This document shows positions 15,959 through 34,242 of a stretch of 44,247 nt of DNA, piece by piece. The notes under the pieces were generated by a model, which did no database searches, was not told the DNA's origin, and was given only the letters and a program-made list of their open reading frames with translations. Location: NCBI GenBank assembly GCA_949292795.1, contig CASFBR010000145.1, forward strand, positions 1-44,247, written 5' to 3'. The DNA is from an uncultured Eubacteriales bacterium. Its GTDB lineage: Bacteria; Bacillota; Clostridia; Lachnospirales; Lachnospiraceae. Both the position numbers and the translations under genes were made by a program. The first letter of the stretch is position 1. Each line of letters starts with the position of its first letter.

Positions 15959-15975
15959 GGTGTCCTCCTGTTACA

Positions 15976-16542: not shown

Positions 16543-16862
16543 TTGCCCTCCTCCTGTACCCTGACGCCAATGGCCTCATTGACATAATCCATAATAAAGC
16601 CGGGATTTCTTCCGGTGCCGTGCCGGTCTGGTATGGCTACGACGATCGGAAGCCGCCGGTTGAGCTTGATGTCCTCAATAATATCAGGGAAATGGCTGCT
16701 CAAAAGCTCGGTAATGAGCAGGATGCCGATGGTCTTATCGGCCAGCACCCGGGCAAGCTCTCTCCCAAGCTCGTCCCGTTCATGGACGACGACACCTTCA
16801 ACTCCGGCCAGGCGCATCCCGGTCAATGTGTCCACGTTGTCACTGATTAAATACATTCTCAT
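16539..16862 (-). CDS. ntpG: V/A-type ATPase subunit F (central stalk)
   Basis: A 107-residue subunit with the small Rossmann-like fold of subunit F: strand MRMYLISDNVDTLTGMRLAG, then GILLITELLSSHF and LPIVVAIPD. It binds subunit D in the rotor. The symbol follows the Enterococcus ntp naming. The ATG at 16862 lies 61 nt after the K subunit stop and the gene overlaps subunit E by 4 nt. Confidence 0.9.
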   Translation of the reverse strand: MRMYLISDNVDTLTGMRLAGVEGVVVHERDELGRELARVLADKTIGILLITELLSSHFPDIIEDIKLNRRLPIVVAIPDRHGTGRNPGFIMDYVNEAIGVRVQEEGK

Positions 16863-16923
16863 AGTCGGTCACCGTTTCATGTCATGTGTGGCGGCGCCGC
16901 TAAAAGCGGCGCCTTAGGTTATA

Positions 16924-17343
16924 TTATCCGAGGATAATAAAGGAAATCAGCAGGCCATAAAGCGCGATACCTTCGGCAAGGGCAACAAAGATAAGCGCTT
17001 TACCCATAACGGAGGAATCTTCGCTTAAAGCGCCTAAAGCGGCACTGGCTGAGGAAGCTACGGCAATACCGGCGCCGATTGTGGACATGCCGGTGGAAAG
17101 CGCGGCGGCAATGTAGCGCAGCCCTTCAGACGAGGCGGCAGCCTGTGAAGCGGCTTCCGCCGCATGGGCCTGACCGCCAAAGAGCATAATGTCTGCGATG
17201 ACGAGAATCGCGAAAAACATTGTAATGTTGATGGCCAGGGTCGTCTTTAAGCGGCCCTTTTTGCGTTCGCCCAGAAGGAACGCCATAAATGGGATAAAAA
17301 TACTTAATATAAGAGCGGCAACGAGTATAATTTTTGTAATCAT
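16924..17343 (-). CDS. ntpK: V/A-type ATPase subunit K (rotor ring)
   Basis: A 139-residue membrane proteolipid with four predicted helices. The C-terminal hairpin carries the glycine-rich helix STGMSTIGAGIAVASSASAALG and the ion-binding Glu at about residue 124 in ALAEGIALYG. The N-terminal hairpin (about 1-57) has no glutamate, so only one ion site per polypeptide is expected. It is somewhat shorter than the common ~155-residue double-hairpin proteins. Whether it moves sodium or protons cannot be decided from this alone. AGGAGGATATTTAA precedes ATG 17343. Confidence 0.92.
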   Translation of the reverse strand: MITKIILVAALILSIFIPFMAFLLGERKKGRLKTTLAINITMFFAILVIADIMLFGGQAHAAEAASQAAASSEGLRYIAAALSTGMSTIGAGIAVASSASAALGALSEDSSVMGKALIFVALAEGIALYGLLISFIILG

Positions 17344-17444
17344 TTAAATATCCTCCTGCATGTAATGTAGCATAATGATCCGGCTGTGATCCGGTGATCT
17401 CTCAGATGTTTGGCCGTGTATACGTTAATCCTGAGGATGTCCGG

Positions 17445-19379
17445 CTATCTGCCGGAGCTTCCATACGGCTTAAATTCATGTCCGGTGCCGCTGTAAAAAC
17501 GGCTGAACATTTCATAATATTCCAGACGGAGCACCTGAATCCCGACGATCAGGCCCTCAAGGGCGGAAATCAGGATGTTTCCGAAAATGACGATAATGAT
17601 ACCGGCCGGCGTGGTGGAATTTTCAATATCTGAGAGCATCATCACAACGCTCATCATGCCGGCGTGGCTTAATGCGAAGGCGCCTACACGGATAAATGAA
17701 ATTGAGTTGGTCATGTAGCTTAAAAGGACTTCAAGCAGTTCAAAAACCGCCTCTGTAACGAACATGACCCGGCCCTCGGAAAGTGTAAAGCGTTTGCGGT
17801 TGATCCGGGCTTTAAGCGGCTCAGCAAAGGCGATGGCAAACAGGCACACGATGATGAGTACGGTCAGCAGCGCCATAAAACGTGTCGGCCCCATTGCCGG
17901 GAGCAGCTTCGTGACAACGATGTAAATGACGATCAGATAAAAGATCAGTCCGGTCAGTCCGTTGGTGCCCACAAGTGCGGAACCGATATTTTTCTGGCGG
18001 ATACTGTTGATGATCTGGATGAGCATGGCGGCGATGATCAAAATCACACCGAAAACAACGGCCAGGATCAATGTGGTCATCATATTTTCAGAGTCCATAG
18101 GCTTCATCCATATGGTCGGAATGACATGCTCAAAGCCGAACAGGCTGCCGTACATGAAACCGAAAAACACAGAAAACAGTCCGCAAAAGGAAATAATGCC
18201 CGCAATATTCAGATGCTTAAAATGATAGAGTAAAAAACCGCCGATCACAAGGCAGGCGCCCTGGCCCACATCGCCGAACATGACACCGAACATAAACGCA
18301 TAGGTCAAGGCCACAAACTTGGTCGGGTCCAGCTCATTATAGGCCGGAAGGCCGTACATGCTGACAAACATCTGAAACGGTTTAAAAATACCACGGTTTT
18401 TCAGGCGGGTCGGCGGGCTTGTAGTAGGTGAAGTATATTCTTCCTCCACAAGAAGGCTGACTTGAGAATCATCCTCCATTTCCCGGGCAAGCTTTTGTGC
18501 ATCGTGAGCTTCCATCCATCCGCACAGAATGTAGAAAACCTCTGCGTGCTCCCGGGTACAGGCCGCCTTTTTGCGGATGTCGAAATTGTCGCACAGTACC
18601 CGCAGCGCCGCATAAGCTTCATTAATCTCTTTTTGATGCTCATAGTAAATGTTTGAGAGCTCAAGGCTGCACTGAGTGATCCTGCGGCGGACATCCTCCA
18701 GCGATTTGCTGACGCCTGTATAAGCTTCAGCCGGGGAGGCAGTCACTTCGTCTGAAATACGGATGCGCTCAAAATGCATGGAAGCAAAGATGGCATCGAC
18801 CTTGACGAAGGTGGACTGCGGAGCAAAATAAACGCCCCAGACGTATTCGGAATCCCGGCTGCTTTCATAAAAGATCGTGTCCAGATTGTCGTAGACATAT
18901 TTTGAAAAGGTATCAAAATAGTTCAGGGCAATGCGGCCAAAACGGAACTTGATAAAATGAAAGTCCAGTATTTTGGCAATGGGGAAGGGAATCCCGCGAA
19001 ACGGCGCAATCTCGCCTAAAAGCCGGACATAATGCGTTTCCTCGGCCTTTAGCTCTTCCTGCTTTTTAGCCAGCTGGCTGCTGTGCTGCGTGATGCTGTC
19101 AATGAGCTTTTTGGCTGTGTCAAGCACATCCGGTGCGATCTTTTTGGCAGGCAGGCTGTCCGGGTCCTGATGATTCACGAGCCTGGCCATTTCCCGCAGG
19201 GCGGCTGCCGGCTCCTTGTAGGGGTTGTCCTCAATAAAAGGGGTCAGCGAATGGGTATCGCCAAGTTCTGTCAGGGCATTTTCAAGATGAATGGGGTATC
19301 GCAGGAGATATTCGCGCGTCACCCTGTCAATATCGCTTTTAGGACCGGTGATATTGACAAATTTCATCTTCGCGATCAT
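17445..19379 (-). CDS. ntpI: V/A-type ATPase subunit I (stator membrane subunit)
   Basis: A 644-residue subunit a/I protein. The N-terminal half (about 1-330) is the soluble arm with coiled-coil stretches. The C-terminal half has seven to eight predicted membrane helices. The stretch SYMTNSISFIRVGAFALSHAGM carries the conserved Arg that faces the ring glutamate. CGGAGGTGAAAAATT precedes ATG 19379. About 100 nt without genes separate it from both neighbours (K and C). Confidence 0.95.
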   Translation of the reverse strand: MIAKMKFVNITGPKSDIDRVTREYLLRYPIHLENALTELGDTHSLTPFIEDNPYKEPAAALREMARLVNHQDPDSLPAKKIAPDVLDTAKKLIDSITQHSSQLAKKQEELKAEETHYVRLLGEIAPFRGIPFPIAKILDFHFIKFRFGRIALNYFDTFSKYVYDNLDTIFYESSRDSEYVWGVYFAPQSTFVKVDAIFASMHFERIRISDEVTASPAEAYTGVSKSLEDVRRRITQCSLELSNIYYEHQKEINEAYAALRVLCDNFDIRKKAACTREHAEVFYILCGWMEAHDAQKLAREMEDDSQVSLLVEEEYTSPTTSPPTRLKNRGIFKPFQMFVSMYGLPAYNELDPTKFVALTYAFMFGVMFGDVGQGACLVIGGFLLYHFKHLNIAGIISFCGLFSVFFGFMYGSLFGFEHVIPTIWMKPMDSENMMTTLILAVVFGVILIIAAMLIQIINSIRQKNIGSALVGTNGLTGLIFYLIVIYIVVTKLLPAMGPTRFMALLTVLIIVCLFAIAFAEPLKARINRKRFTLSEGRVMFVTEAVFELLEVLLSYMTNSISFIRVGAFALSHAGMMSVVMMLSDIENSTTPAGIIIVIFGNILISALEGLIVGIQVLRLEYYEMFSRFYSGTGHEFKPYGSSGR

Positions 19380-19481
19380 AATTTTTCACCTCCGTGTATC
19401 ATTTTTATTCCGCAAAAGGTTTATATTGTTTGCATTAAGATGTTTATTTATAGCGTCTGCATTTTGAACAATGCCAATGTT

Positions 19482-20537
19482 TTACTTGCGGATATAGCTT
19501 AAAATCTGGCTGGCGTCAAGTCCATACCGTATACATTCCATAGCGGTTGTCAGATCATTGATTTCTTCCTCGCGCAAAAACAGATATTCGTCAATGACGG
19601 CAAGGGAGTACGGATATTTGCGTGCTGCCATACGGCGAAGCTTTTTCATAAGCTGCCCGTATATCCGGGAAAGCGCATCATCTGAATCCCGGGCGGATTG
19701 CTCGATGGATGCCAGGGCGCGTCCGTAAAAGGATTTTCCAAGCAGCTCCAGGTATTCCGTAAGCGATGCACATTCAATAAGTCGCCGGATAAAAGCCGCG
19801 TTGAGCCGGTAATGGATCGGGATCAGGTTGGCATACATACGGCCGCTGTCCACATTGTAAAAACGCCTGGAGCGGTAAATCCATAAAATATTCAAAAGAT
19901 CAATCTGTGTGCCGTAGATTTTCGTGATCGCTTTAAGCTCAGAGGATTTCAGGACTTTATCCTTTTGCTTCCATAAATAACGGAAAAAATAAATGTCCAG
20001 TGACAGCTCATAATCAAAGAGGCTTGCGCCTTCTATATCCCTTAAAGGCGAAAGCAGTGTCGCGTAAATCGAGCCTTTGAGTACCTCAAAAAACTGTTCC
20101 AGGTTTTTGCATCTGGAAAGCTCTAAAAGATTGACGGACGACTGCTGTGAAAAGTGTGCCGGGATCAAAGACGTGTCAAAGGTAATGTCTCTGTGGTCGA
20201 ATATAAAGCGCAGGAAGGTTTTAATGATCTGGATTTCGTAGCGCTTGAAATAGACCTTTAAAAAGCGGCGCTGACCGGGGCCTGCAAAGGTATAGATGCG
20301 CGCGTAATCATCATAGAGCGCCAGCTGCAAAAGCTTTTCAATCTCGCCGCGGTGCATGGCATCGGACGCGCGCTCAAAGACCTTATTATAGGACGGGGTC
20401 ATTTTCAGCCAGGAAAAAAATTCCTGCACAGACTGCATGGAAGCGATCGTATTGTAATCGGCTTCGCCGAGCAGACGGCCTTTCATCGCTTTGATTTTTG
20501 CGGCCATGCTGCTGTAAGTCATAAGAGCATTTGGCAT
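19482..20537 (-). CDS. ntpC: V/A-type ATPase subunit C (socket for central stalk)
   Basis: A 351-residue, mostly helical subunit C/AC39 that seats the D/F shaft on the K ring. It begins MPNALMTYSSMAAKIKAMKGRLL, the usual N-terminal helix. ATG 20537 has AGGAG about 9 nt upstream and lies 4 nt after the stalk gene stop; the upstream open frame is shadow of that gene. The C-terminus (CIRYGLDASQILSYIRK) is typical. Confidence 0.9.
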   Translation of the reverse strand: MPNALMTYSSMAAKIKAMKGRLLGEADYNTIASMQSVQEFFSWLKMTPSYNKVFERASDAMHRGEIEKLLQLALYDDYARIYTFAGPGQRRFLKVYFKRYEIQIIKTFLRFIFDHRDITFDTSLIPAHFSQQSSVNLLELSRCKNLEQFFEVLKGSIYATLLSPLRDIEGASLFDYELSLDIYFFRYLWKQKDKVLKSSELKAITKIYGTQIDLLNILWIYRSRRFYNVDSGRMYANLIPIHYRLNAAFIRRLIECASLTEYLELLGKSFYGRALASIEQSARDSDDALSRIYGQLMKKLRRMAARKYPYSLAVIDEYLFLREEEINDLTTAMECIRYGLDASQILSYIRK

Positions 20538-20541
20538 AGTA

Positions 20542-20853
20542 TCAGGCTCCTGTAATGCGGGAAAAGATTTCCTGCACATAGTGGTCGTGGTTCGCAGTAT
20601 AATCGGCATCAAGCTGTGCGAGATTGCGTCTGGCTTCCAAAGACAGTCGGGAAATTTCCTGAGCGTTGGCGTCATCAAGCGTTTTCGCAAGCTCCTTCAT
20701 ACGGGCTTTGGCATCCTCCTGAATCTGACGGGAGATGATCTGCGCCTTTTCGTCGAACTCCCGGGCGAGCGCTTTTTTCTGCGCTGCGGCATTGTCGATG
20801 ATCTGGCTGGCGCGGGCATCAATACTGCTTAAGGTTTCAATGGGATTATTCAC
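20542..20853 (-). CDS. ntpF: V/A-type ATPase peripheral-stalk subunit G/H
   Basis: A 103-residue, highly charged, almost entirely helical protein with heptad character (ASQIIDNAAAQKKALAREFDEKAQIISRQI...), predicted to form the stator coiled coil with subunit E. It is the first gene of the operon. The start is GTG at 20853, placed after AGGAGGTGAAGG. Family assignment rests on composition, length and operon position. Confidence 0.82.
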   Translation of the reverse strand: MNNPIETLSSIDARASQIIDNAAAQKKALAREFDEKAQIISRQIQEDAKARMKELAKTLDDANAQEISRLSLEARRNLAQLDADYTANHDHYVQEIFSRITGA

Positions 20854-21422: not shown

Positions 21423-23531
21423 TTATACAGAAAACAAAAGCTGGTCATAAGTCGGGTAGGGCAGAAGCTCATCCGGTATTTTGACCTCAGCCGCATCAGC
21501 AGTTTTTCTTAAAACATCCATCAGCGGCAGAAGCTCATTCAAGCACATGTTGGCAGCGTTCTGCATCGTATCGGACTCTGCTTTGGCCTGTACGGATGCA
21601 AGTACTGTCTCAAGACCCTCAAGGCCGGAGCTTAAGGATTCGTAGGCGCCGGAAAGCTCTGTGACAAGGGCTTCCTCTGCGGCGGTGGAGATGGCAGGCA
21701 TAAACGCTTTTTTAGCCGCGGCATTTTGAGCGACATGGGCACTGTAAGTGCTTAATGCCGGGAGAAAATCTTTTGCAAGCATCTCATGGAGTGTTTTAGC
21801 TTCAATTTCGATTGTCTTGACATAGTTTTCAAGCAAAATCTCATAGCGGGAGAAAATTTCTTCCTTTGTGAAAATATGATAATCTGTAAGCAGCTTGACA
21901 TTTTTATCGGATGTAAACTGCGCCAGTGCTTCCGGCGTAGATACAAGATTGTAAAGGCCGCGGGCTTTTGCCTCCTCAACCCATGCTTCGGTGTAGCCAT
22001 TGCCGTTGAAGATTACCTTTTTATGTTTTTTGATGGCACGCTTGATCATGGCGTGAACCGCTTCTGTCATATGCTCCGGGTCTGCCTCTGACAGCTCCAG
22101 ATAAAACTGATGCAGTGCTTCAGCCACAGCAGCATTAAGTACCATGTTCGGATTGGCTACCGAGGTGCTGGAGCCGAGCATACGGAACTCGAATTTGTTG
22201 CCTGTGAAGGCAAACGGGGATGTACGGTTACGGTCGGTTGTATCTTTTGTAAAATGCGGCAGTACATGCGCGCCGGTTTCAAGCTGCACGGTTTCCTGAG
22301 TACCAAAATAAGTATCGTTTTCGATGGACTTAAGAATAGCGGTCAGCTCATCGCCGAGGAAAATCGATACGATGGCCGGAGGCGCTTCATTTCCGCCGAG
22401 GCGGTGGTCATTGCCTGCACCGACAACGGAGATGCGCATAAGGTCCGCATAATCATCCACTGCCTTGATAACAGCCATGAGAAATACAAGAAACTGCACG
22501 TTTTCAGCCGGTGTTTTTCCGGGATTTAACAGATTGTCACCGGCATTGGTCGTTAAAGACCAGTTGTTATGCTTGCCGCTGCCGTTGATGCCTTCAAAGG
22601 GTTTTTCATGGAGCAGACATACAAGTCCGTGCTTGTCGGCAATCTTTTTCATCAGCTCCATGGTGAGCTGATTGTGATCCACTGCGACGTTGGCGGTTTC
22701 AAAAACCGGTGCAAGCTCATGCTGTGCCGGAGCCACTTCATTATGCTTCGTCTTTGCAGGAATACTTAATTTCCACAGCTCTTCATCCAGCTCGTGCATA
22801 TATTCTGAAACTCTTGGCTTTAAGGCGCCGAAGTAGTGATCTTCCATTTCCTGTCCTTTAGGTGCCGGTGCTCCGATGAGCGTGCGGCCGCAGAAAATCA
22901 GATCGCGGCGTTTGTTATACAGCTCTTTATCGACAAGGAAATATTCCTGCTCCGGGCCGACGGTTGTGCTGACGCTGGTGACATCGTCACGGCCGAGAAG
23001 CTTTAACATTTTAACGGCTTCATGGCTCAGCGCCTCCATTGAACGAAGAAGCGGTGTCTTTTTGTCGAGCGCCTCACCGCTGTATGAACAAAAGGCTGTG
23101 GGTATATATAAGGTACGGTCTTTGATAAATGCCGGGGAGGTCGGGTCCCAGGCTGTATAGCCTCTGGCTTCAAAGGTTGCTCTGAGCCCTCCGGACGGAA
23201 AGCTTGAAGCATCCGGTTCGCCTTTGACAAGCTCCTTGCCGGAAAACTCCATGATGACTTCGCCGCCCTCGGCAGGGGAAATAAAGCTGTCATGCTTTTC
23301 TGCCGTAAATCCGGTCATCGGCTGAAACCAATGGGTATAGTGCGTAGCACCGTTTTCAACTGCCCATTCCTTCATGGCGACAGCCACGGAGTTGGCAACA
23401 TCCAGTTCCAGGTGCGTGCCGTTCTCGATTGTTTTTCTTAGCGCCTTATAGACGTCTTTGGGCAGCTTGTTGCGCATGACTTTATCATTAAATACCAGAC
23501 TGCCATATAATGTGGGAATATCCTTTGCCAT
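21423..23531 (-). CDS. glnN: Glutamine synthetase type III
   Basis: A 702-residue GSIII enzyme making glutamine from glutamate, ammonia and ATP in the cytoplasm. Conserved blocks: [15 protein letters not shown] (metal Glu), [29 protein letters not shown] (catalytic His/Asn region), [17 protein letters not shown], and the C-terminal GSIII-specific helical extension. Length is typical for the type (about 700, versus about 450 for GSI). ATG 23531 follows AAGGAGGTTTTCAT. It has its own promoter and an ANTAR-type attenuator in the leader. A second, type I synthetase is encoded at 32139, so the cell has both. Confidence 0.97.
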
Positions 23532-23640: not shown

Positions 23641-23679
23641 AAAAAGGCGCCCTGGGTAATCCAGAACGCCTTTGCTCTA
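23641..23679 (-). promoter_or_regulatory. ANTAR-type attenuator of glnN
   Basis: Minus-strand hairpin TAGAGC-AAAGGC-GTTCTG (23679-23662) has a hexaloop with A at position 1 and G at position 4. Its loop and 3' arm are also the 5' arm of a 13-bp terminator, AAAGGCGTTCTGG (23673-23661) with CCAGGGCGCCTTT (23655-23643), followed by a T-run. The two structures exclude each other, as in ANTAR antitermination. The regulator is encoded at 33691. Confidence 0.72.
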
Positions 23680-23687
23680 TGTCCGTT

Positions 23688-23715
23688 AGTATACACGGAA
23701 TTTGGGAAATGTCAA
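23688..23715 (-). promoter_or_regulatory. Sigma-A promoter of glnN
   Basis: On the minus strand TTGACA (23715-23710), a 16-nt spacer and TATACT (23693-23688). The predicted start, near 23681, is only a few nucleotides before the hexaloop hairpin. Confidence 0.72.
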
Positions 23716-23745
23716 TAGGGGTTTTGAAAAAAAGTGCAAACCCCC

Positions 23746-23774
23746 TTTACAAACGGCGGAAAATAAGTTATAGT
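23746..23774 (+). promoter_or_regulatory. Sigma-A promoter of pyrG-gltBD
   Basis: TTTACA (23746-23751), a 17-nt spacer and TATAGT (23769-23774). It is back-to-back with the glnN promoter. The predicted leader is about 160 nt and contains the attenuator at 23845-23902. No G-run occurs at the predicted start, so the Bacillus pyrG reiterative-G mechanism is unlikely. Confidence 0.68.
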
Positions 23775-23844
23775 TTTATGCATTGATATTGGAAAAACGA
23801 GCATATAACGGAATCGTTTTACGAATGTTTAATAAAATACGCGA

Positions 23845-23902
23845 TGACAAAGGTGTCAGAAATGAAGTAATGAAAAATTACAGGATTTCTGACACTTTTT
23901 TT
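23845..23902 (+). promoter_or_regulatory. ANTAR-type attenuator of pyrG
   Basis: TGAC-AAAGGT-GTCA (23845-23858) is a perfect 4-bp stem with an A1/G4 hexaloop. It overlaps a long terminator stem, AGGTGTCAGAAAT (23851-23863) with ATTTCTGACACTT (23885-23897), which has an inner GTAAT/ATTAC stem and ends in seven T. The sequence matches the glnN and glnA leaders (CAAAGGYGT). Confidence 0.7.
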
Positions 23903-23941
23903 ATGCAGGCTTTACTTTATAGAAACAGGAGGGATTTTATT

Positions 23942-25558
23942 ATGGTAAAGTATGTTTTTGTTACCGGCGGCGTTGTCTCCGGTCTTGGAAAAGGGATTAC
24001 GGCGGCATCCCTTGGACGCTTGCTTAAAGCAAGAGGTTACAGTGTGACGATGCAGAAATTTGATCCGTATATTAATATTGATCCGGGAACGATGAACCCG
24101 ATCCAGCACGGCGAGGTATTTGTGACCGATGACGGCACGGAGACCGATCTGGACCTCGGACATTATGAGCGGTTTATTGATGAGAGTCTTGATAAAAATT
24201 CCAATGTGACAACGGGAAAGATTTACTGGTCCGTGCTGCAAAAAGAACGCCATGGAGACTACGGCGGCGGAACCGTGCAGGTCATCCCGCATATTACCAA
24301 TGAGATCAAGAGCCGTTTCTACCGCGGGAAAACTCCGGATGAGGAACGCATTGCGATCATTGAAGTCGGCGGGACGGCCGGAGATATTGAGAGTCAGCCC
24401 TTTTTGGAGGCCATTCGCCAGTTCCAGCATGATGTGGGACATGAAAATACCATTTTAATCCATGTGACGCTGATCCCGTATCTGAAAGCATCCGGCGAGT
24501 TGAAAACAAAGCCGACGCAGGCCAGCGTTAAGGAGCTTCAGGGCATGGGACTGTGGCCGGATATTTTAGTATGCCGCAGCGAATATCCGCTGAGCCAGGA
24601 TATTAAAGATAAGATTGCCCTGTTTTGTAATGTTCCGGAAAGCCGTGTGCTGCAAAATCTTGATGTGGAATATCTCTATGAAGCGCCGCTGGCAATGGAA
24701 AAGGAAAATCTGGCGAAAGTGGTTTGCGAATGTTTAAAGCTTCCATGTCCGCAGCCGGACTTAACGGACTGGGAAAGTATGGTCGATGCGCTCCGTCACC
24801 CGGAGCTGGATGTGGAAATTGCCATGGTCGGCAAGTATGTGCAGCTTCATGACGCCTACTTAAGCGTGGTGGAAGCGCTGAAGCACGGCGGCATCCAGAG
24901 CCGGGCCAGCGTCCATATCCGCTGGGTGGATTCTGAGGAAATCACAGATACCGATACATGCGCGCAGCTGCTTAAGGGTGTGAATGGAATTTTAGTTCCG
25001 GGCGGTTTTGGGACAAGAGGCACAGAAGGAAAGATACTGGCCGTACGCTATGCCCGGGAAAACAAAATACCATTTCTTGGCATTTGCCTTGGAATGCAGA
25101 TGGCGATCGTGGAATTTGCCAGACATGTGCTGGGCTATCACGATGCCAACAGCATCGAGCTTGACCCCAATACGATGCATCCGGTAATCGCCCTGATGCC
25201 GGAGCAGGACGGCATTGAAGATATTGGCGGGACATTAAGGCTGGGCGCCTATCCGTGTATTCTGGCCGATGGCACAAAAGCCCGTGAGCTTTACGGCACA
25301 AAAGAGATTTCTGAGCGGCACCGCCACCGCTATGAGGTGAACAATGATTACAGAGAAAAGCTCCAGGAGGCCGGAATGACACTGGCCGGGCTGTCACCGG
25401 ACGGGCGTATTGTGGAAATGATTGAGCTTAAGGAACATCCGTTTTTTATCGGAACTCAGGGACATCCGGAATTTAAATCCCGTCCGAACCATGCACATCC
25501 GCTGTTCGGCGGCTTTATCGCTGCTGCTGCGGCGTATAAAAAGAACATGGAGAAATAG
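23942..25558 (+). CDS. pyrG: CTP synthase
   Basis: A 538-residue enzyme converting UTP to CTP with glutamine as nitrogen donor. The N-terminal synthetase domain starts [25 protein letters not shown] (P-loop); the C-terminal class I glutamine amidotransferase has GICLGMQMA with the nucleophile Cys and a late HPEF. ATG 23942 follows ACAGGAGGGATTTTAT. The frame is open 53 codons further upstream, but that part overlaps the terminator and is leader. It precedes gltB by 56 nt with a small ATGCGGG/CCCGCAT hairpin (25564-25580) between them, so CTP synthase and glutamate synthase are probably co-transcribed and share the attenuator. Confidence 0.97.
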
Positions 25559-25614
25559 CCGGAATGCGGGAAGCCCGCATCGCAGGAGCTTTAAAAAGAA
25601 AGGTTGTGTAATAT

Positions 25615-28600
25615 ATGAAAGCAAACGGACACCCGCGCGGTTTATATCGTCCGCAGTTTGAACATGACAACTGCGGTATCGGTGCGATCGTCAACAGTAA
25701 AGGCGAAAAAAGCCACCGTACAGTGGAAAATGCATTAAAAATTGTGGAAAATCTGGAGCATCGGGCCGGAAAGGATGCTGAAGGAAAGACCGGCGACGGT
25801 GTCGGCATTTTGCTTCAGATTTCACACCGCTTTTTCTCAAAAGTATGCCGGAAGCTTCAGATTCCGCTTGGGCCGGAAAAAACATATGGTATTGCTATGC
25901 TTTTTCTGCCGCAGGAGGAATTAAAGTGCAACCAGGCGCGCAAAATGTTCGAGATCATTGTGGAGCGGGAAGGCATGGAGCTTTTAGGCTTCCGCGATGT
26001 GACGGTATGCCCGGAAGTACTTGGGAGCAAGGCGCGGGAATGTATGCCAAAGATTGTCCAGGCTTTTATCAAAAAGCCGGATGACGTGGCGGAGGGGCTG
26101 GATTTTGACCGCAGGCTCTACATTGCCCGCCGCATTTTTGAACAGAGCAATGACAACACTTATGTAGTATCAATGTCCAGCCGGACGATCGTTTATAAAG
26201 GCATGTTCCTTGTGGGACAGCTGCGGACATTTTTTGCGGACCTTCAGGACAGGGATTACGAGTCGGCGATCGCCATGGTACATTCCCGTTTCAGTACCAA
26301 CACAAATCCAAGCTGGGAGCGGGCGCATCCAAACCGGCTGATTGTGCATAACGGCGAAATCAATACGATCCGGGGCAATGCGGATAAAATGCTTGCCCGC
26401 GAAGAGACGATGGCATCGGGAGCCTTTGAAGGCGAGCTTCACAAGATTTTGCCGGTCGTCAATACCGGTGGTTCCGACTCAGCGATGCTTGATAATACGC
26501 TGGAATTTCTTGTGATGAGCGGGATGCCGCTGCCGCTGGCGGTGATGATCACGATCCCGGAGCCGTGGGCAAATAATCCGGCGATCTCCCAGGATGAACG
26601 GGATTTTTACCAATATTATGCCACAATGATGGAGCCGTGGGACGGCCCGGCAGCGATTGTATTTTCCGACGGTGATATGATGGGCGCTGTGCTGGACCGC
26701 AACGGCCTGCGTCCGTCCCGGTATTATGTACTTAAAAATGGCGATGTGATCCTGGCTTCAGAGGTAGGCGTGCTTCCGGTGCCCGAGGAGGAGATTGTTC
26801 TTAAAGAACGGCTTCATCCGGGAAAAATGCTTCTTGTGGATACGGTACACGGAGAAATTTTAAACGATGAGCAGGTCAAGGCACGCTATGTGACGGCACA
26901 GCCTTACGGCGAGTGGCTGGATGCAAATCTGCTGGAATTAAAATCGCTCAAGATTCCAAACATGCGGACAGAGGAATATACCAGTGCTCAGAGAAGCCGC
27001 CTGCAAAAAGCATTTGGCTATACCTACGAGGAATTTCGCAAATCGATTTACAGCATGGCCCTAAACGGTGCAGAAAGTACGGCGGCCATGGGCGATGACA
27101 CGCCGCTGGCGGTACTGTCTACAAAGCATCCGCCGCTGTTTAACTATTTTAAGCAGCTTTTTGCTCAGGTCACGAATCCGCCGATCGATGCGATCCGGGA
27201 GGAGATTGTTACAAGTACGTCGGTATATGTGGGAAAACAGGGGAATTTGCTGGAACCAAGACCGGCCAACTGCCAGGTGCTTAAGATTCATAATCCGATC
27301 CTGACCAATACAGACATGCTTAAAATTAAAAATATGAAGGCAGATTGTTTTAAGGTCGCCGTGGTGCCAACAACTTATTATAAAAGTACAAAATTAAAGA
27401 GGGCCATTGACCGGCTTTTTGTGGAGGTCGATAAAGCCTATGCGGATGGTGCCAATATTCTTGTCCTGTCAGACCGGGGCGTTGATGAAAATCATGTGCC
27501 TATGCCGTCTCTGCTTGCAGTAGCGGCGGTGCACCAGCATCTTGTGGCGACGAAAAAACAGACAGCGATGTCTTTGATTCTGGAATCCGGGGAACCCCGG
27601 GAGGTTCACCATTTTGCCACGCTGCTGGGCTATGGAGCCTGCGCGGTCAATCCTTACCTTGCGCTGGAATCTATCCGGGAGCTGATCGATGAAAAACTGC
27701 TGGATAAGGACTATTATGCCGCTGAAAATGATTACACGCTGGCTGTCCTTCACGGTATTGTCAAAATCGCGTCCAAAATGGGTATATCGACCATCCAGTC
27801 GTATCAGGGCTCCAAGATTTTTGAAGCCATCGGCATTTCCGACAGCGTGATCGATACCTATTTTACCGGAACGGTGAGCCGTGTCGGCGGGATTACGCTG
27901 GAGGATATTGCACGGGAAACCGATGAGCGTCATTCCCGGGCATTTGATCCGCTGGGCCTTGGGACGGACACGACACTGGACAGTATGGGATGGCATAAAA
28001 TGCGCAGCGGCGGTGAGAAGCACCGCTACAATCCGGCGACAATCCATTTGCTCCAGCAATCCACCCGGGAGGGCAGCTATGACTTATTTAAAAAGTACAC
28101 AGCTATGGCCGATACCGAAGATAACGGCTATCTGAGAAGCCTTATGGATTTCGATTATCCGGCGCAGGGCGTTCCCATTGATGAGGTTGAAAGCGTTGAT
28201 GCGATTGTGAAGCGTTTTAAAACCGGAGCGATGTCTTACGGCTCCATATCTGAGGAGGCTCATGAGACGCTGGCGATTGCCATGAATCATCTTCACGGAA
28301 TGTCCAATACCGGAGAGGGCGGCGAGAGCGATGAGCGCCTGGATTCGGCAGGCCAGGAAAATGACCGGTGTTCGGCCATTAAACAGGTGGCGTCCGGCCG
28401 GTTTGGCGTGACAAGCCGTTATCTGGTCAGCGCAAAAGAGATACAGATCAAGATGGCTCAGGGAGCCAAGCCCGGAGAGGGCGGACATCTTCCGGCCAAA
28501 AAAGTGTACCCGTGGATTGCTAAGACACGGCATTCCACGCCGGGCGTAAGTCTGATCTCTCCGCCGCCCCACCACGATATTTATTCCATTGAGGACCTGG

Positions 28601-30132
28601 CACAGCTTATTTATGATCTGAAAAATGCCAATAAATATGCCCGTATTTCGGTAAAGCTTGTATCGGAGGCCGGTGTGGGAACCGTAGCCGCAGGTGTTGC
28701 CAAGGCCGGCGCACAGGTGATCCTTATTTCCGGTTATGACGGCGGTACCGGCGCTGCGCCGGAAAGCTCCATTCACAATGCCGGGCTGCCATGGGAGCTG
28801 GGGCTTGCGGAAACTCATCAGACATTGATCCAAAACGGCCTTCGGGAGCGGGTGCGCATTGAGACCGACGGCAAGCTCATGACCGGACGGGACGTGGCGG
28901 TAGCCGCCCTGCTTGGCGCCGAGGAATTTGGCTTTGCCACAGCGCCGCTGGTTACACTGGGCTGTGTGATGATGCGTGTCTGCAATCTGGATACATGTCC
29001 GGCGGGAATCGCGACGCAGAACCCGCAGCTTCGGAAACGCTTTTCGGGCAAGCCGGAATATGTTGAGAATTTTATGCGGTTTATCGCTCAGGAGCTTCGC
29101 GAATATATGGCCCGCCTTGGATTTCGCACGATCGATGAGATGGTCGGGCGCAGCGACCGGCTGAAGATGCGTCAGGATGCTCCGGAAAAGATGGACCTTG
29201 GCGCAGTGCTTGGCGGCGGCGGAAACGTGATTTTTGATCCGAAAAAGGTTTATGATTTCCATCTGGAAAATACGCTGGATGAAAAAGTGCTGTTAAAGAA
29301 ATTAAAGAGTGCCATTACAGAAAAGAAGCACACCGAGCTGTCTGTACATGTAAGCAATACCGACCGTGCCTTTGGAACACTCCTGGGTGCGCAGATTACA
29401 CGGGAGCATAAAGACGGCCTGCCGGAAGATACGCTTTTGATCCGCTGTGAGGGCGCCGGCGGCCAGAGCTTCGGGGCATTTATACCGGCCGGGCTGACGC
29501 TGAGCCTGTGCGGAGATACGAACGACTACTTCGGGAAAGGGCTTTCCGGCGGGAAGCTTATTGTATATCCGCCGAAGGAGGCCACCTACAATGCACAGGA
29601 CAATATCATTGCCGGAAATGTGGCGCTTTACGGAGCAACCTCAGGCAAGGTATTTATCAATGGCATTGCCGGAGAGCGTTTTGCGGTGCGCAATTCCGGG
29701 GCAAGAGCTGTGGTAGAAGGCGTTGGCGAGCATGGCTGCGAATATATGACCGGCGGCTGTGTTGTCGTCCTTGGACAGACCGGAAAAAACTTTGCCGCAG
29801 GTATGAGCGGCGGCACGGCTTATGTTTTGGATGAAAATAACCATTTATACCGAAACCTCAATAAATCTATGGTTTCCATCGAAAAGGTGGAAAATAAATA
29901 TGATATACAAGAGCTGAAGGATATGATCTGCGAGCATGTGAAAGTGACCGGTTCTGTCCGGGGACAGCGTATCCTTGATGATTTTGAGAATTATCTTCCT
30001 AAATTTAAAAAGATTATTCCCAATGATTATAAACGGATGCTCGCCTTAAGCGCCCGGCTTGAAGAAAAAGGCATGAGCACGCAGCAGGCACAGATGGAAG
30101 CTTTTTATGAAAACTTTGCTTCTATGGAGTGA
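25615..30132 (+). CDS. gltB: Glutamate synthase large subunit
   Basis: A 1505-residue glutamate synthase. The N-terminal class II glutaminase domain becomes active after removal of a short propeptide, exposing C20 in DNCGIGAIVN. Next come the central domain, the FMN/2-oxoglutarate synthase barrel (about 800-1200; GYDGGTGAAPESSIHNAGLPWE), the [3Fe-4S] cysteines in CVMMRVCNLDTCPAG, and the C-terminal beta-helix with repeated G-x-x-G-x-x-x-G. It makes two glutamate from glutamine and 2-oxoglutarate. ATG 25615 is preceded by AAAGAAAGG. It forms the enzyme with the gltD product encoded 33 nt downstream. Confidence 0.97.
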   Translation: MKANGHPRGLYRPQFEHDNCGIGAIVNSKGEKSHRTVENALKIVENLEHRAGKDAEGKTGDGVGILLQISHRFFSKVCRKLQIPLGPEKTYGIAMLFLPQEELKCNQARKMFEIIVEREGMELLGFRDVTVCPEVLGSKARECMPKIVQAFIKKPDDVAEGLDFDRRLYIARRIFEQSNDNTYVVSMSSRTIVYKGMFLVGQLRTFFADLQDRDYESAIAMVHSRFSTNTNPSWERAHPNRLIVHNGEINTIRGNADKMLAREETMASGAFEGELHKILPVVNTGGSDSAMLDNTLEFLVMSGMPLPLAVMITIPEPWANNPAISQDERDFYQYYATMMEPWDGPAAIVFSDGDMMGAVLDRNGLRPSRYYVLKNGDVILASEVGVLPVPEEEIVLKERLHPGKMLLVDTVHGEILNDEQVKARYVTAQPYGEWLDANLLELKSLKIPNMRTEEYTSAQRSRLQKAFGYTYEEFRKSIYSMALNGAESTAAMGDDTPLAVLSTKHPPLFNYFKQLFAQVTNPPIDAIREEIVTSTSVYVGKQGNLLEPRPANCQVLKIHNPILTNTDMLKIKNMKADCFKVAVVPTTYYKSTKLKRAIDRLFVEVDKAYADGANILVLSDRGVDENHVPMPSLLAVAAVHQHLVATKKQTAMSLILESGEPREVHHFATLLGYGACAVNPYLALESIRELIDEKLLDKDYYAAENDYTLAVLHGIVKIASKMGISTIQSYQGSKIFEAIGISDSVIDTYFTGTVSRVGGITLEDIARETDERHSRAFDPLGLGTDTTLDSMGWHKMRSGGEKHRYNPATIHLLQQSTREGSYDLFKKYTAMADTEDNGYLRSLMDFDYPAQGVPIDEVESVDAIVKRFKTGAMSYGSISEEAHETLAIAMNHLHGMSNTGEGGESDERLDSAGQENDRCSAIKQVASGRFGVTSRYLVSAKEIQIKMAQGAKPGEGGHLPAKKVYPWIAKTRHSTPGVSLISPPPHHDIYSIEDLAQLIYDLKNANKYARISVKLVSEAGVGTVAAGVAKAGAQVILISGYDGGTGAAPESSIHNAGLPWELGLAETHQTLIQNGLRERVRIETDGKLMTGRDVAVAALLGAEEFGFATAPLVTLGCVMMRVCNLDTCPAGIATQNPQLRKRFSGKPEYVENFMRFIAQELREYMARLGFRTIDEMVGRSDRLKMRQDAPEKMDLGAVLGGGGNVIFDPKKVYDFHLENTLDEKVLLKKLKSAITEKKHTELSVHVSNTDRAFGTLLGAQITREHKDGLPEDTLLIRCEGAGGQSFGAFIPAGLTLSLCGDTNDYFGKGLSGGKLIVYPPKEATYNAQDNIIAGNVALYGATSGKVFINGIAGERFAVRNSGARAVVEGVGEHGCEYMTGGCVVVLGQTGKNFAAGMSGGTAYVLDENNHLYRNLNKSMVSIEKVENKYDIQELKDMICEHVKVTGSVRGQRILDDFENYLPKFKKIIPNDYKRMLALSARLEEKGMSTQQAQMEAFYENFASME

Positions 30133-30165
30133 GCGCATTTCAAATGAAACAGGAGGCGGACGAAG

Positions 30166-31701
30166 ATGGGTAAATCCACAGGATTTTTAGAATATGAGCG
30201 CAAAGACGCGGCGGCAGAGCAGCCAAAGCTGCGCATCAGGAATTTTAATGAATTTAAGACGGCGCTTCCCGTGCGGGAGCAGCAGCTCCAGGGCGCCCGG
30301 TGCATGGAGTGCGGCGTGCCCTTTTGCCAGTATGGCGGCATGGTAGGCGGGATGGCTTCGGGATGCCCGCTGCATAATCTTGTGCCTGAGACAAATGATC
30401 TTGTCTATACGGGCAACTGGGAGCAGGCATATAAGCGGCTGGAAAAGACACATTGTTTCCCGGAATTTACCGGGCGTGTATGTCCGGCGCTGTGTGAGGC
30501 TGCGTGTACATGCGGACTTTACGGTGATCCGGTAGCTACAAAGGCGAACGAGGAAGCGATCATTGAACAGGCGTTTGCCCGCGGATGGGTAAAAGCATGT
30601 CCGCCCCAGGTGCGTACCGGAAAGCGGGTCGCTGTCGTGGGAAGCGGGCCTGCGGGGCTGGCGGCGGCGCTGATGTTAAACCGCCGGGGACATTTAGTGA
30701 CGGTATTTGAGCGCAGCGATGCCATTGGTGGACTGCTCCGGTATGGCATACCAAATATGAAGCTGGAAAAATGGGTGATTGACCGCAGAATCGCGCTTAT
30801 GGAAGAAGAAGGCGTGGAATTTCGTACGGGAATCGATGTGGGGAAAGACATAAAGGCTGCGCAGCTTCTAAAGGATTTTGACCGTATACTGCTGGCCTGC
30901 GGCGCGTCTGAGCCAAGAGACATTGCGGTTGCCGGACGGGATGCCAAAAATATTTATTTTGCGGTTGATTTTCTCGGGGAAGTGACCCGTGCTCTAAAGC
31001 CTGTGAAAGCTTCAGGGCAGGAGGAAGACCGGCAGACGGAGCATGGCAGGGTAAGCGTTGATGACCGGGCAGCCGTGCGGGCGCTTGTGAAAGGAAAGCA
31101 TGTGCTTGTCATCGGCGGCGGCGATACGGGAAACGACTGTGTCGGCACAGCGGTGCGGCTGGGCGCAAAATCGGTTACTCAGCTTGAGATGATGCCGGAA
31201 CCGCCGGTGGTGCGTGCTTCGTCAAATCCGTGGCCGGAGTGGCCTAAAATAAAAAAGACCGATTACGGCCAGGAGGAAGCTGCAGCGGTTTACGGGCATG
31301 ACCCGAGAATCTATCAGACAACGGTAAGTGAATTTATTAAAGACGATAAAGGAAATGTATGCCAGGCAAGGCTTGTCAGCCTTGAACCAAAGACAGATGA
31401 AAAGACCGGACGCACGGTCATGACGCCGGTGGAGGGCTCACAAAAGCTGGCCGACGCTCAGCTCGTGCTGATTGCAGCCGGATTTACAGGCGCGCAAAAA
31501 TATGTGCCGGACGCATTTAAAGTAGCTTTAAACAGCCGGGGCTGTGTGGCTGCAGATGAAGAAACCTACATGGCGGCCGACCGGATATTTGCCGCCGGTG
31601 ACATGCGCCGCGGACAGTCGCTTGTCGTCTGGGCCATCCATGAAGGACGGGAAGCCGCCCGCGCCATTGACCGCTCTCTCATGGGCTATACAAATTTATA
31701 A
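30166..31701 (+). CDS. gltD: Glutamate synthase small subunit
   Basis: A 511-residue flavoprotein passing electrons from NAD(P)H to GltB. The N-terminal Fe-S segment has CMECGVPFC, CPLHNLVPE and later Cys (CPALCEAACTCG). It then has the FAD motif VGSGPAGLAAA and the NAD(P) motif IGGGDTGNDC. ATG 30166 follows AGGAGGCGGACGAAG. A perfect 16-bp inverted repeat begins 3 nt after the stop. Length and motifs are typical. Confidence 0.96.
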   Translation: MGKSTGFLEYERKDAAAEQPKLRIRNFNEFKTALPVREQQLQGARCMECGVPFCQYGGMVGGMASGCPLHNLVPETNDLVYTGNWEQAYKRLEKTHCFPEFTGRVCPALCEAACTCGLYGDPVATKANEEAIIEQAFARGWVKACPPQVRTGKRVAVVGSGPAGLAAALMLNRRGHLVTVFERSDAIGGLLRYGIPNMKLEKWVIDRRIALMEEEGVEFRTGIDVGKDIKAAQLLKDFDRILLACGASEPRDIAVAGRDAKNIYFAVDFLGEVTRALKPVKASGQEEDRQTEHGRVSVDDRAAVRALVKGKHVLVIGGGDTGNDCVGTAVRLGAKSVTQLEMMPEPPVVRASSNPWPEWPKIKKTDYGQEEAAAVYGHDPRIYQTTVSEFIKDDKGNVCQARLVSLEPKTDEKTGRTVMTPVEGSQKLADAQLVLIAAGFTGAQKYVPDAFKVALNSRGCVAADEETYMAADRIFAAGDMRRGQSLVVWAIHEGREAARAIDRSLMGYTNL

Positions 31702-31703
31702 GA

Positions 31704-31765
31704 CCAATTCAGCCATGCAAAAAGCTGCGCCGGAAACGGAAGCGCAGGCTGCATGGCTGAATTGG
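31704..31765. other. Large inverted repeat just after gltD
   Basis: CCAATTCAGCCATGCA (31704-31719) and its exact reverse complement (31750-31765) enclose 30 nt that can also pair in part (AGCTGCGC/GCGCAGGCT). There is no T-run, so it is a structured 3' end or a small transposon-like relic rather than a plain terminator. Confidence 0.6.
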
Positions 31766-31802
31766 AAAATTCCCGGTCGTACAGACAGAGCGGCACATTC
31801 AG

Positions 31803-31970
31803 TTGACCGGCAAAGACGTGGAATATGTCCCTCATTTTCTTGATAATAAAGGCAGCTTCAGCTCTTTTTTGAGCAAACTGGATGAAACTCAAAGCGAAAA
31901 GTTTCGGACTGCCCTGGAAATGCTGTTTGATGTATTTATGCATATGAGAAAAGACAACGAGGAGTCTTGA
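31803..31970 (+). pseudogene. Short ORF or gene remnant between gltD and glnA
   Basis: A frame of 55 codons from TTG 31803 to TGA 31968-31970 reads like protein: LTGKDVEYVPHFLDNKGSFS followed by a charged helix (SKLDETQSEKFRTALEMLFD). No ATG or ribosome site is in frame; an ATG at 31753 starts a different frame that stops at once, so an upstream frameshift is possible. The family is not recognised. Its TGA lies within the -35 box of the glnA promoter. Confidence 0.35.
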
Positions 31971-31995
31971 CATGCACATTTTCGGATGCTATAAT
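31967..31995 (+). promoter_or_regulatory. Consensus sigma-A promoter of glnA
   Basis: TTGACA (31967-31972), a 17-nt spacer and TATAAT (31990-31995): both hexamers and the spacing are perfect. The predicted start near 32002 is within about 5 nt of the hexaloop hairpin. A promoter this strong suits a gene controlled mainly by antitermination. Confidence 0.8.
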
Positions 31996-32006
31996 GCAAT
32001 CCAGAA

Positions 32007-32059
32007 GAGGACAAAGGTGTTCTTATCCAGTGCTTGCCGTGGGTAAGAGCGCCTTTTTT
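32007..32059 (+). promoter_or_regulatory. ANTAR-type attenuator of glnA
   Basis: GAGGAC-AAAGGT-GTTCTT (32007-32024) forms a 6-bp stem (two G-U pairs) with an A1/G4 hexaloop. It overlaps a 16-bp terminator stem, AAAGGTGTTCTTATCC (32013-32028) with GGGTAAGAGCGCCTTT (32041-32056), ending in six T. Promoter, hairpin and terminator are packed into about 60 nt. Confidence 0.75.
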
Positions 32060-32138
32060 ATTGCACAGGAAGCGGGTTCCTGGAAAAACAGAAGTTTTTT
32101 ATCGATCACTGAAAATGCTCTGGAAGGAGAGTTGTTTT

Positions 32139-33470
32139 ATGGGAAATTATACAAGAGAGCAGATCATCCACATGGTTGAGGAAGAGGATGTGGAGTTTAT
32201 ACGTTTGCAATTTACGGATATGTTTGGTGTGTTAAAAAACATCGCAGTTCCGGTGAGCCGGCTGATGAAAGCGATGAATAACGAATGTACGATCAATGCT
32301 TCATTTATCCCGGGACTTGACCTGGAAGGGGACAGCGATCTGTTTTTGCATCCGGATTTATCTACATTTACGATCCTGCCGTGGAGGCCTCAGCAGGGCA
32401 AGGTAGCCCGGTTTATCTGCGATCTGTATCATATGGACGGAACGAGCTGCCAGAATAGTCCGAGAACGGTTTTACAGCGGGTCGTACAGCGGGCCAGAGA
32501 AATGGGCTATGAGCTTATGGTCAATCCGGAGTGCGAATTTTTCCTGTTTCATACCGATGAAAACGGGATGCCCACAAATGTTACCCATGAGAAAGCCGGC
32601 TATATGGATACAACGCCTCTGGACCTTGGCGAAAATGCCCGGAGAGATATTATCCTTACACTGGAGGAAATGGGCTATGATATTGATTCTTCCCGGCATG
32701 AGCTTGCCCCGGCTCAGCATGAGATCGATTTTTTATATTCCGATACTCAGGAAACGGCGGATAAGATTATGACCTTTAAGGTGGCAGCCCGCACGGTGGC
32801 CAAGCGCCATGGCCTTCATGCCACCTTTATGCCCAAGCCAAGCGCCAATGTGGACGGCTCGGGGATGCACATTCATATGCGGCTCATGAAGAATGGAAAA
32901 AATGTCTTTTATGATGCCAATGACCCTATGGGTCTGAGTGTCCAGGCGTATCAATTTATTGCCGGACTGATGTGCCATATTAAAGGCATGAGCGCACTCT
33001 TAAATCCGTTGGTCAATTCTTATAAGCGGCTGATCACAGGCTTTGAGGCGCCTTTTGATATTACCTGGTCCAGCTGCCAGCGTTCAGCGATGATACGGGT
33101 GCCATATCAGAGGGGCGAGGAGACGACGATCGAGCTGCGAAGCCCGGACGGTGCGGCGAATCCTTATCTGGCCTTTGCGCTTTGTCTGGCTGCCGGACTT
33201 CATGGAATTGAAAATCAGATGCAGCCCCCGGCGGATGTGCATGTGGATGTCCGGAAAATGTCTGCGGAGGATAAGAAAAAAGCTGGCATTGACAGTCTCC
33301 CGGCAAATTTAAGCGAAGCGCTCACAGAGCTGGAAAAGGACGAGTTTATCCAAAACGTTCTCGGAAAGCCGCTGGCATGCAGCTATGTGCGTGAAAAACG
33401 CCGGGAATGGGAAAGCTATATGGAGCAGATTTCGGAATGGGAATTAAACCGGTATCTTTATTGCATGTAG
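32139..33470 (+). CDS. glnA: Glutamine synthetase type I (short, alpha-type)
   Basis: A 443-residue GSI. Blocks: NPECEFFLFH (metal Glu), SRHELAPAQHEIDF, KPSANVDGSGMHIHM (catalytic His), and RSPDGAANPYLAFA. The length and the lack of the adenylylation loop fit the GSI-alpha form used by Firmicutes, which is controlled by feedback and transcription rather than adenylylation. ATG 32139 follows AAGGAGAG; the frame opens upstream but would include the terminator hairpin. The gene's last ~28 bp are tandemly repeated after the stop. The ANTAR regulator gene follows 220 nt later. Confidence 0.96.
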   Translation: MGNYTREQIIHMVEEEDVEFIRLQFTDMFGVLKNIAVPVSRLMKAMNNECTINASFIPGLDLEGDSDLFLHPDLSTFTILPWRPQQGKVARFICDLYHMDGTSCQNSPRTVLQRVVQRAREMGYELMVNPECEFFLFHTDENGMPTNVTHEKAGYMDTTPLDLGENARRDIILTLEEMGYDIDSSRHELAPAQHEIDFLYSDTQETADKIMTFKVAARTVAKRHGLHATFMPKPSANVDGSGMHIHMRLMKNGKNVFYDANDPMGLSVQAYQFIAGLMCHIKGMSALLNPLVNSYKRLITGFEAPFDITWSSCQRSAMIRVPYQRGEETTIELRSPDGAANPYLAFALCLAAGLHGIENQMQPPADVHVDVRKMSAEDKKKAGIDSLPANLSEALTELEKDEFIQNVLGKPLACSYVREKRREWESYMEQISEWELNRYLYCM

Positions 33471-33690: not shown

Positions 33691-34242
33691 ATGAGTGTCA
33701 TTATTATTGCTTTGCAGAAAACGGAAGCAGCGGCAAAGATCAGAGGCGTTCTTGTCTCCCACGGCTTTGATCATGTTGTGTGTGCGTCCACAGGCGCCGC
33801 CGCATTGCAGGAGGCCGGGAGAGACACGACGGGTGTGGTGATCTGCGGCTATAAGCTGCCGGATATGTATTATAAAGAGCTTAATGACAGCCTGCCCCAG
33901 TATTTTGAGATGTTGTTTATCGGAAAGCCGGAAATGATCCAGGCTGGCAGCGAGGGTGTGCTGGCGCTGTCAACGCCGCTGCGGGTGTCGGAGCTGATCA
34001 GTACGGTAACCATGATGCTTTCCCAGCTTGGGCGGCAGTTTAAGAAAAACCGTCGAAAGCCCAGGGTTCGGTCGTGGCAGGAGGAAAATTACATTCGCAA
34101 TGCCAAGCTTCTTCTGATGGAGCGCAATCACCTGTCGGAGGAGGAGGCGCACCGCTATCTTCAAAAATGCAGCATGGATAATGGAACGAATATGGTAGAG
34201 ACGGCACAGATGATTTTGACATTAATGTATGAGGAAGTGTAA
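33691..34242 (+). CDS. ANTAR-domain RNA-binding antiterminator, GlnR/NasT-like
   Basis: A 183-residue protein: an N-terminal receiver-like domain (1-110) and a C-terminal three-helix ANTAR domain (about 125-180, including IRNAKLLLMERNHLSEEEAHRYL and TNMVETAQMIL). The receiver looks degenerate: the place of the phosphoacceptor Asp reads VVICGYKLPDM, with no Asp at the strand end. Control by phosphorylation is therefore doubtful. ATG 33691 follows AAGGGAGGCGGG. ANTAR proteins bind A-x-x-G hexaloop hairpins and prevent termination. Three such leaders lie upstream (glnN, pyrG, glnA), so this is very likely their regulator. A terminator follows directly. Confidence 0.9.
   Translation: MSVIIIALQKTEAAAKIRGVLVSHGFDHVVCASTGAAALQEAGRDTTGVVICGYKLPDMYYKELNDSLPQYFEMLFIGKPEMIQAGSEGVLALSTPLRVSELISTVTMMLSQLGRQFKKNRRKPRVRSWQEENYIRNAKLLLMERNHLSEEEAHRYLQKCSMDNGTNMVETAQMILTLMYEEV

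Follow-up and report, generated by a model that had tools for sequence, protein, structure and literature searches.

The leaders of glnN, pyrG and glnA on a contig of an uncultured Lachnospiraceae bacterium (assembly GCA_949292795.1, contig CASFBR010000145.1) are probably transcription attenuators controlled by an ANTAR-domain protein, in which one hexaloop hairpin, equivalent to P2 alone, replaces the canonical P1 and P2 pair. The whole stretch of 44,247 nucleotides (nt) that was analysed is referred to here as the window. These leaders look like ANTAR attenuators and yet fail the two-hairpin definition, and we therefore treat them as a single-hexaloop variant of the known kind. In the proposed mechanism, transcription from a sigma-A promoter would begin right at the hexaloop hairpin or a few nt upstream of it (in pyrG about 64 nt upstream). 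Without help, the hexaloop and its 3' arm would be captured by a downstream arm, forming an intrinsic terminator that stops transcription ahead of the gene. Under nitrogen shortage, the sole ANTAR protein of the genome, whose gene follows glnA, would bind the hexaloop directly and hold the small hairpin, allowing readthrough. Antitermination would thereby depend on the ANTAR protein, and the signal, by analogy with the clostridial regulator NitR, may be low nitrogen or low glutamine. The predicted regulon of this genome comprises glnA, glnN, pyrG-gltBD, purF and amtB.

To locate such elements, we used a detector that requires an A..G.. hexaloop closed by 3 or more base pairs (bp), with the loop opening the 5' arm of an intrinsic terminator. 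It scored the glnN, pyrG and glnA leaders at 31, 33 and 37, against at most 17 for nine other candidates in the window; among 40 dinucleotide shuffles of the window, none reached 25 and one reached 20. An earlier note on this DNA (the original prediction) had described in each leader a stem with an A1/G4 hexaloop doubling as the 5' arm of a terminator, and all three were recovered in place. On the minus strand, glnN (21423..23531) encodes a 702-residue glutamine synthetase, type III-like, with a weak GlnA-family match, whose name follows the original prediction. Its promoter TTGACA-16-TATACT (23688..23715; 11/12 consensus match) precedes the P2-like antiterminator hairpin tagagc[AAAGGC]gttctg (23662..23679; loop 23673-23668), which is recovered by both the detector and covariation. 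The remaining loci lie on the plus strand. The pyrG promoter TTTACA-17-TATAGT (23746..23774; 10/12) is followed by the detector-defined hairpin tgac[AAAGGT]gtca (23845..23858; loop 23849-23854). That of glnA, TTGACA-17-TATAAT (31967..31995; 12/12), is followed by gaggac[AAAGGT]gttctt (32007..32024; loop 32013-32018), likewise found by the detector. In every case the intrinsic terminator stem-loop includes the hexaloop and its 3' arm and runs into a U-run (glnN, 23643..23673, minus strand; pyrG, 23849..23899; glnA, 32013..32056). The gene pyrG (CTP synthase, 23942..25558) is the first of a close array with gltB and gltD, the large and small subunits of glutamate synthase (25615..30132 and 30166..31701), separated by gaps of 56 and 33 nt, so that counting its leader among the nitrogen leaders, as had been done earlier, is fair. 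The type I glutamine synthetase gene glnA (32139..33470) is followed by the ANTAR gene (33691..34242).

Terminator folding z-scores for glnN, pyrG and glnA were -4.9, -7.6 and -4.6. The small hairpin folds with only -3.1 to -5.0 kcal/mol, against -20.9 to -24.5 kcal/mol for the terminator, and being this weak it would need help to persist. No Rfam family matched the window at its gathering score, and permissive scans of the leaders gave matches only far below the gathering score of each family.

The original prediction had proposed folding and a covariance search in related genomes as a check, and the hexaloop-terminator element indeed recurs before nitrogen genes, with covariation in both of its alternative helices. 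In an alignment of 28 leaders (A1), the antiterminator helix is 86.3% paired and holds 34 double-change cells against 15.6 in shuffles, and the terminator helix is 93.1% paired with 53 such cells against 18.7. Sliding the partners abolishes pairing in both helices alike; the count of pairs with any double change does not exceed that of shuffles in either helix of A1. The three loop-closing pairs formed part of the leader selection, whereas the fourth stem pair is independent of it and is paired in 27 of the 28 leaders as G-C, A-U, U-A or G-U. We also examined 112 promoters before target genes, requiring a strong promoter together with a hairpin and terminator while leaving loop length and sequence unfixed. 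This loop-free search found no such hairpin at 72 promoters and one at 40: 33 with hexaloops, all AANGGC, five with the same loop but positions 1 and 6 paired, and two others, although some of these loci had been chosen by a match to a covariance model (R1; built from 28 leaders, including the three of the window), which favours an AANGGC-type loop.

Taking the transcription start as the end of the -10 element plus 7, the predicted starts leave about 2-5 nt ahead of the hairpin in glnN and glnA and about 64 nt in pyrG. The earlier claim that the three leaders have room for only one hairpin thus stands for glnN and glnA, where no upstream partner fits, and fails for pyrG, where there is room; the accompanying claim that pyrG lacks a partner hexaloop is borne out, as its predicted leader contains only a 7-bp hairpin with a 13-nt loop. 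Each predicted window transcript carries one A..G.. hexaloop (stem of at least 3 bp) ahead of the terminator 3' arm; at glnA, additional 3-bp hexaloop matches occur at 32048, inside that arm, and at 31908, upstream of the promoter. The promoter position recurs across the family. When 2-110 nt upstream of the stem were searched, the best promoter matching at least 10 of 12 consensus positions sat 5-14 nt before the stem in 61 of the 82 leaders that had one, and 62 of 114 leaders had a promoter 2-17 nt from the stem, against a shuffle mean of 1.4.

These counts bear on a rival reading, namely that the leaders are canonical dual-hexaloop targets whose P1 was overlooked because it is degenerate, lies further upstream on a longer transcript, or lies downstream of P2. 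Several points speak for it: published ANTAR systems need both P1 and P2 (as described in PMC3369931 and PMC8934654), the long pyrG leader has space and a non-hexaloop hairpin, and one family leader does have a good upstream hexaloop. Against it stand promoters this close to the stem, and upstream A..G.. hexaloops within 60 nt are near chance: with 3-bp stems they occur in 16 of 115 leaders (shuffles 9.1, range 6-17) and with 4-bp stems in 3 of 115 against 2.25, and some of them belong to neighbouring attenuators. As a dual control, we examined 20 loci, from outside the family, that surround ANTAR proteins with a receiver and a coiled coil; these yielded 15 candidate leaders. In six of the 15 a further hexaloop lies upstream, within 45 nt (0.9 expected), so the detector finds a P1 there. 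Two of the six lie in L267, where the ANTAR gene adjoins glnA and amtB, one before amtB and one before the ANTAR-glnA pair. With the same strict-stem detector, family leaders show no enrichment (4 of 83, 4.0 expected; Fisher p=0.0007 against the control), so the second upstream hexaloop that the original prediction had named as a refuting sign is not in excess in the family. Downstream hexaloops do exceed mononucleotide shuffles, with 13 of 115 leaders against 6.1 for 3-bp stems and 8 of 115 against 1.9 for 4-bp stems. We nonetheless rejected a downstream partner as a rule, since the hairpins of a terminator do not survive shuffling and some of the cases are attenuators in tandem; 107 of 115 leaders lack a 4-bp partner altogether. 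Two tandem hexaloops joined by a short linker, the mark of a dual target, were not found in the predicted window transcripts, and across the family an upstream second hexaloop is no more frequent than chance. On balance an overlooked P1 is improbable, and a minimal one-hairpin ANTAR target, which the original prediction had offered as one possibility, gains support from the recurrence of the hexaloop, the terminator overlap and the promoter position. Most simply, the dual form would be ancestral, with loss of P1 in this family. The gltB leader at L138:1508 (plus strand; second ANTAR group, see below), with the hexaloop tgtc-AATGGA-gaca about 29 nt upstream, is possibly a surviving dual target inside the family.

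A search of the 2.9-megabase genome with R1 returned five sites at E<=1: the training leaders of glnN, pyrG and glnA, and non-training sites before purF (L093:1501-1546, plus strand) and amtB (L096:1501-1547, minus strand), identified from their translations. Both non-training elements repeat the promoter-hairpin-terminator layout of the window. R1 reports the amtB element on the wrong strand because its terminator is nearly symmetric; the active strand is the opposite one, where the detector sees the element with a promoter 8 nt away. All five sites precede nitrogen or glutamine-using genes; the set behind them consists of two genes for glutamine synthetases, those for glutamate synthase, one for an ammonium transporter and two for glutamine amidotransferases.

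Relatives named by a protein-alignment search are Lachnospiraceae, including Blautia, Dorea, Coprococcus and Muricomes. At the family loci that were fetched, the detector picked up 124 elements, before glnN (30), amtB (23), glnA (15), gltB (8), pyrG (7), purF (6) and other genes (35); many of these loci were fetched for an R1 match, so the tallies describe matches rather than an unbiased survey. The other targets include asnB (7 by Pfam), carA (2), glnK (2), asnA, a gene of the glutamate dehydrogenase family, a circularly permuted ATP-grasp gene and eutA. For a few, no connection with nitrogen is apparent, namely a tRNA-ribosyltransferase (by eye, L126), an M20 peptidase (L211) and a PPDK_N gene (L150), and these may be chance matches or unlinked members. 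The strict detector found an element in 17 of 80 named contigs, a low yield that reflects its demand for near-perfect stems and the coverage of only about 4 kb on each side. In Blautia glucerasea (L291) the element stands roughly 1.5 kb ahead of the ANTAR gene, at the place occupied by glnA in relatives. A pattern search with a T-run filter, used to score the glnA element in relatives, also found elements before pyrG, glnN or gltB in other relatives.

Several arrangements at these loci deserve separate mention. Tandem single-hexaloop terminators, each hexaloop with its own terminator, stand before one gene at L114 (1508 and 1549), L154 (1508 and 1563), L085 (3389 and 3449, minus strand) and L209 (2051 and 2101, minus strand); the genes behind such pairs are gltB, glnN, asnB and an ATP-grasp gene. 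A second hexaloop-terminator type, ATTATC[A..G..]GATAAT, occurs near amtB in the leaders of L132, L161 and L191, and on the opposite strand in L217. At L181:2033 (plus strand) a single-hexaloop leader precedes eutA; the one ANTAR match in that genome is the glnA-linked one. Circularly permuted ATP-grasp genes follow the element in L109 (by Pfam) and in L129, L209 and L214 (by eye), and their product is possibly an unrecognised nitrogen-linked enzyme.

The link to the ANTAR protein rests on gene order and co-occurrence. A PF03861 profile search of the assembly gave one match, the gene following glnA, so the protein that the original prediction had noted beside glnA is the sole ANTAR protein encoded. 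A sequence search found a relative of it in 69 of 80 sampled genomes, and a Pfam ANTAR match, nearly always one, was present in 72 of the 80 and in 200 of 220 in a wider sample. The gene directly upstream is glnA in 57 of 60 fetched loci; of the other three, one is ended by a contig edge and two have ANTAR fused to pyrG. Scoring element presence by R1 at E<=0.01, we found the element in 65 of 72 genomes with ANTAR and in 1 of 8 without (p=8e-6) in a first set, which includes the genomes that supplied training leaders and whose ANTAR-positive part was scored with stricter filters than the rest. In a further 40 genomes, all scored alike, the figures were 23 of 26 and 4 of 14 (p=2e-4), giving 88 of 98 and 5 of 22 combined (p=7e-10), with the reservation that the sampled genomes are related and the p-values overstate their independence.

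Of the five ANTAR-less genomes with matches, L145 and L367 have sites resembling ordinary terminators, L351 and L368 have theirs before glnN, and that of L365 lies at a contig end. A weak-threshold search of these genomes detected no convincing ANTAR protein; assembly gaps or another factor possibly account for them. They offer some footing for the view that the attenuators are served by another factor, or are unregulated terminators, with the ANTAR protein uninvolved, and attenuation of pyrG by cytidine triphosphate (CTP) without ANTAR is known in Bacillus. Such a view would have to accommodate the conserved A1/G4 hexaloop, which is the ANTAR signature, the conserved competing helix, the co-occurrence and the adjacency of glnA and ANTAR, and we regard it as quite improbable.

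The window protein combines a pseudo-receiver, a basic linker and a C-terminal ANTAR domain (PF03861, 57.7 bits against a cut-off of 27.3). Its structure model has a receiver fold with a mean predicted local distance difference test (pLDDT) score of 89.6, and its best fold match in the PDB is EutV with RNA (6ww6, E 2e-10). In the alignment the phosphorylation site Asp is replaced by Gly and the conserved Lys by Thr, so the receiver is not of the phosphorylatable type, and phosphorelay input was rejected on these grounds; across the main family group the acceptor position is Gly or Ser (by eye). The input would come through protein-protein contact rather than phosphorylation. An EutV-type coiled coil is missing by eye, its place being taken by a basic, Pro-containing linker (usually Pro-containing in the main family group), and the model breaks the helix at 123-128, between the receiver and the ANTAR domain; the protein possibly dimerises by means other than a coiled coil. 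When the EutV contact residues given in PMC8934654 were mapped by hand onto the alignment, Lys149, Glu160 and Met172 proved to be kept. RNA contacts may instead be made by Arg155, Tyr156, Gln158 and Lys159, which vary little or not at all in the family alignment.

In a second family group (L097-L099, L101 and L103-L105; by eye) the pseudo-receiver comes with a coiled coil, and the leaders of this group are single too, with an upstream hexaloop in 1 of 18 against 0.9 expected. We therefore rejected the idea that losing the coiled coil led to the single hexaloop, and the change in the protein is not a simple explanation. Two genomes encode a CTP synthase with an ANTAR domain joined in frame at its C-terminus (Pfam CTP_synth_N, GATase, ANTAR): L090:3628-5370 (minus strand) and L091, where it is cut by the contig end. 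In L090 the fusion is the only ANTAR match of the genome, and a hexaloop leader precedes the fused pyrG as well as the divergent glnN.

Dual-hexaloop targets and their link to nitrogen genes are established (PMC3369931, PMC3369936). As these reports and PMC8934654 describe them, EutV/eut, NasR/nasF and AmiR/amiE share with the present leaders an A1/G4 hexaloop on a short stem set against an intrinsic terminator, an ANTAR-domain protein and the nitrogen-gene link. Unlike them, the leaders described here have one hexaloop rather than two in tandem, with the hairpin at the 5' end of the RNA, and the window protein is a pseudo-receiver without a coiled coil in which most EutV contacts are changed. 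The original prediction had taken both hairpins to be needed for dimer binding. According to PMC8934654 both are indeed needed, for antitermination and not for binding, since the EutV dimer engages one hexaloop at a time; why antitermination should then need two is posed there as an open question. That EutV-RNA structure makes a single hexaloop the smallest unit that an ANTAR dimer binds, as it would be here; a difference is that the single sites of the present leaders sit on terminators. NitR of Clostridium saccharobutylicum is described in a review (PMC6316151) as an ANTAR-family protein that induces glutamine synthetase/glutamate synthase (GS/GOGAT) genes on nitrogen limitation by antitermination; going by that description, which names only GS/GOGAT, it is alike in ANTAR-type induction of these genes and comes from a different family. 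The published covariance searches that we found define the ANTAR target as two hairpins, so a single-hexaloop regulon would have been missed, and our search of open-licence PMC literature found no paper on single-hexaloop antitermination or on a CTP synthase-ANTAR fusion.

Several observations weigh against single-hexaloop ANTAR attenuation. In the eut system, as described in PMC8934654 and PMC3369931, one hexaloop is insufficient for antitermination, and eight EutV contacts (Arg142, Lys143, Lys147, Tyr164, Arg168, Asn173, Arg175 and Arg177) are changed in the window protein. At the threshold used, 10 of the 98 ANTAR genomes lack the element, while motif-like sites persist in three ANTAR-less genomes (L351, L368 and L365), two of them before glnN. 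The glnA element was found by the pattern search in only a third of relatives (19 of 57). Among the leaders themselves, 32 of 114 have no promoter of at least 10/12 within 110 nt, and pyrG leaders are longer, with gaps of 11-70 nt at a 9/12 threshold and one without a promoter.

The second possibility raised by the original prediction, that a single ANTAR dimer links hexaloops of two separate RNAs, would suit single hexaloops on several co-regulated leaders, and the EutV crystal lattice does show hexaloops from different RNA molecules (PMC8934654). The authors of that study nevertheless considered it unlikely that hexaloops are bound in trans, nascent leaders are scarce and distant from one another, and the sequence lends bridging no support; we consider it highly improbable. 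Least credible of all is that the inverted repeat is a DNA operator for a repressor, for although a hairpin at or just past the predicted start occupies a typical operator position, the stem varies with paired changes (GAC/GTC, AAC/GTT, AGC/GCT) around a fixed loop while the terminator arm covaries, which is the pattern of an RNA.

Beyond single-hexaloop attenuation in this genome, we put forward a broader scenario tentatively, at somewhat below even odds. In Lachnospiraceae most of the control over nitrogen assimilation would be exerted once transcription has begun, through one ANTAR protein that acts on single hexaloops at the 5' end of the RNA. The ancestral partner hairpin would have been lost, and recognition would have re-evolved in a phosphorylation-independent pseudo-receiver that senses by protein contact, perhaps with glutamine synthetase. 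Given the CTP synthase-ANTAR fusion of two genomes, an enzyme that uses glutamine might itself read both its own leader and that of glnN. If each terminator of a natural regulon has just one hairpin, in a family whose sampled genomes mostly have a single ANTAR gene, the question of why two hairpins are needed becomes testable; two target types and two protein types can be compared in one assay. The regulon is a candidate for global nitrogen control in a major group of gut bacteria. Elsewhere in the window, genes for V/A-type ATPase subunits (alpha/beta-type, I-type and C-type by Pfam) occupy 14192-20690 on the minus strand.

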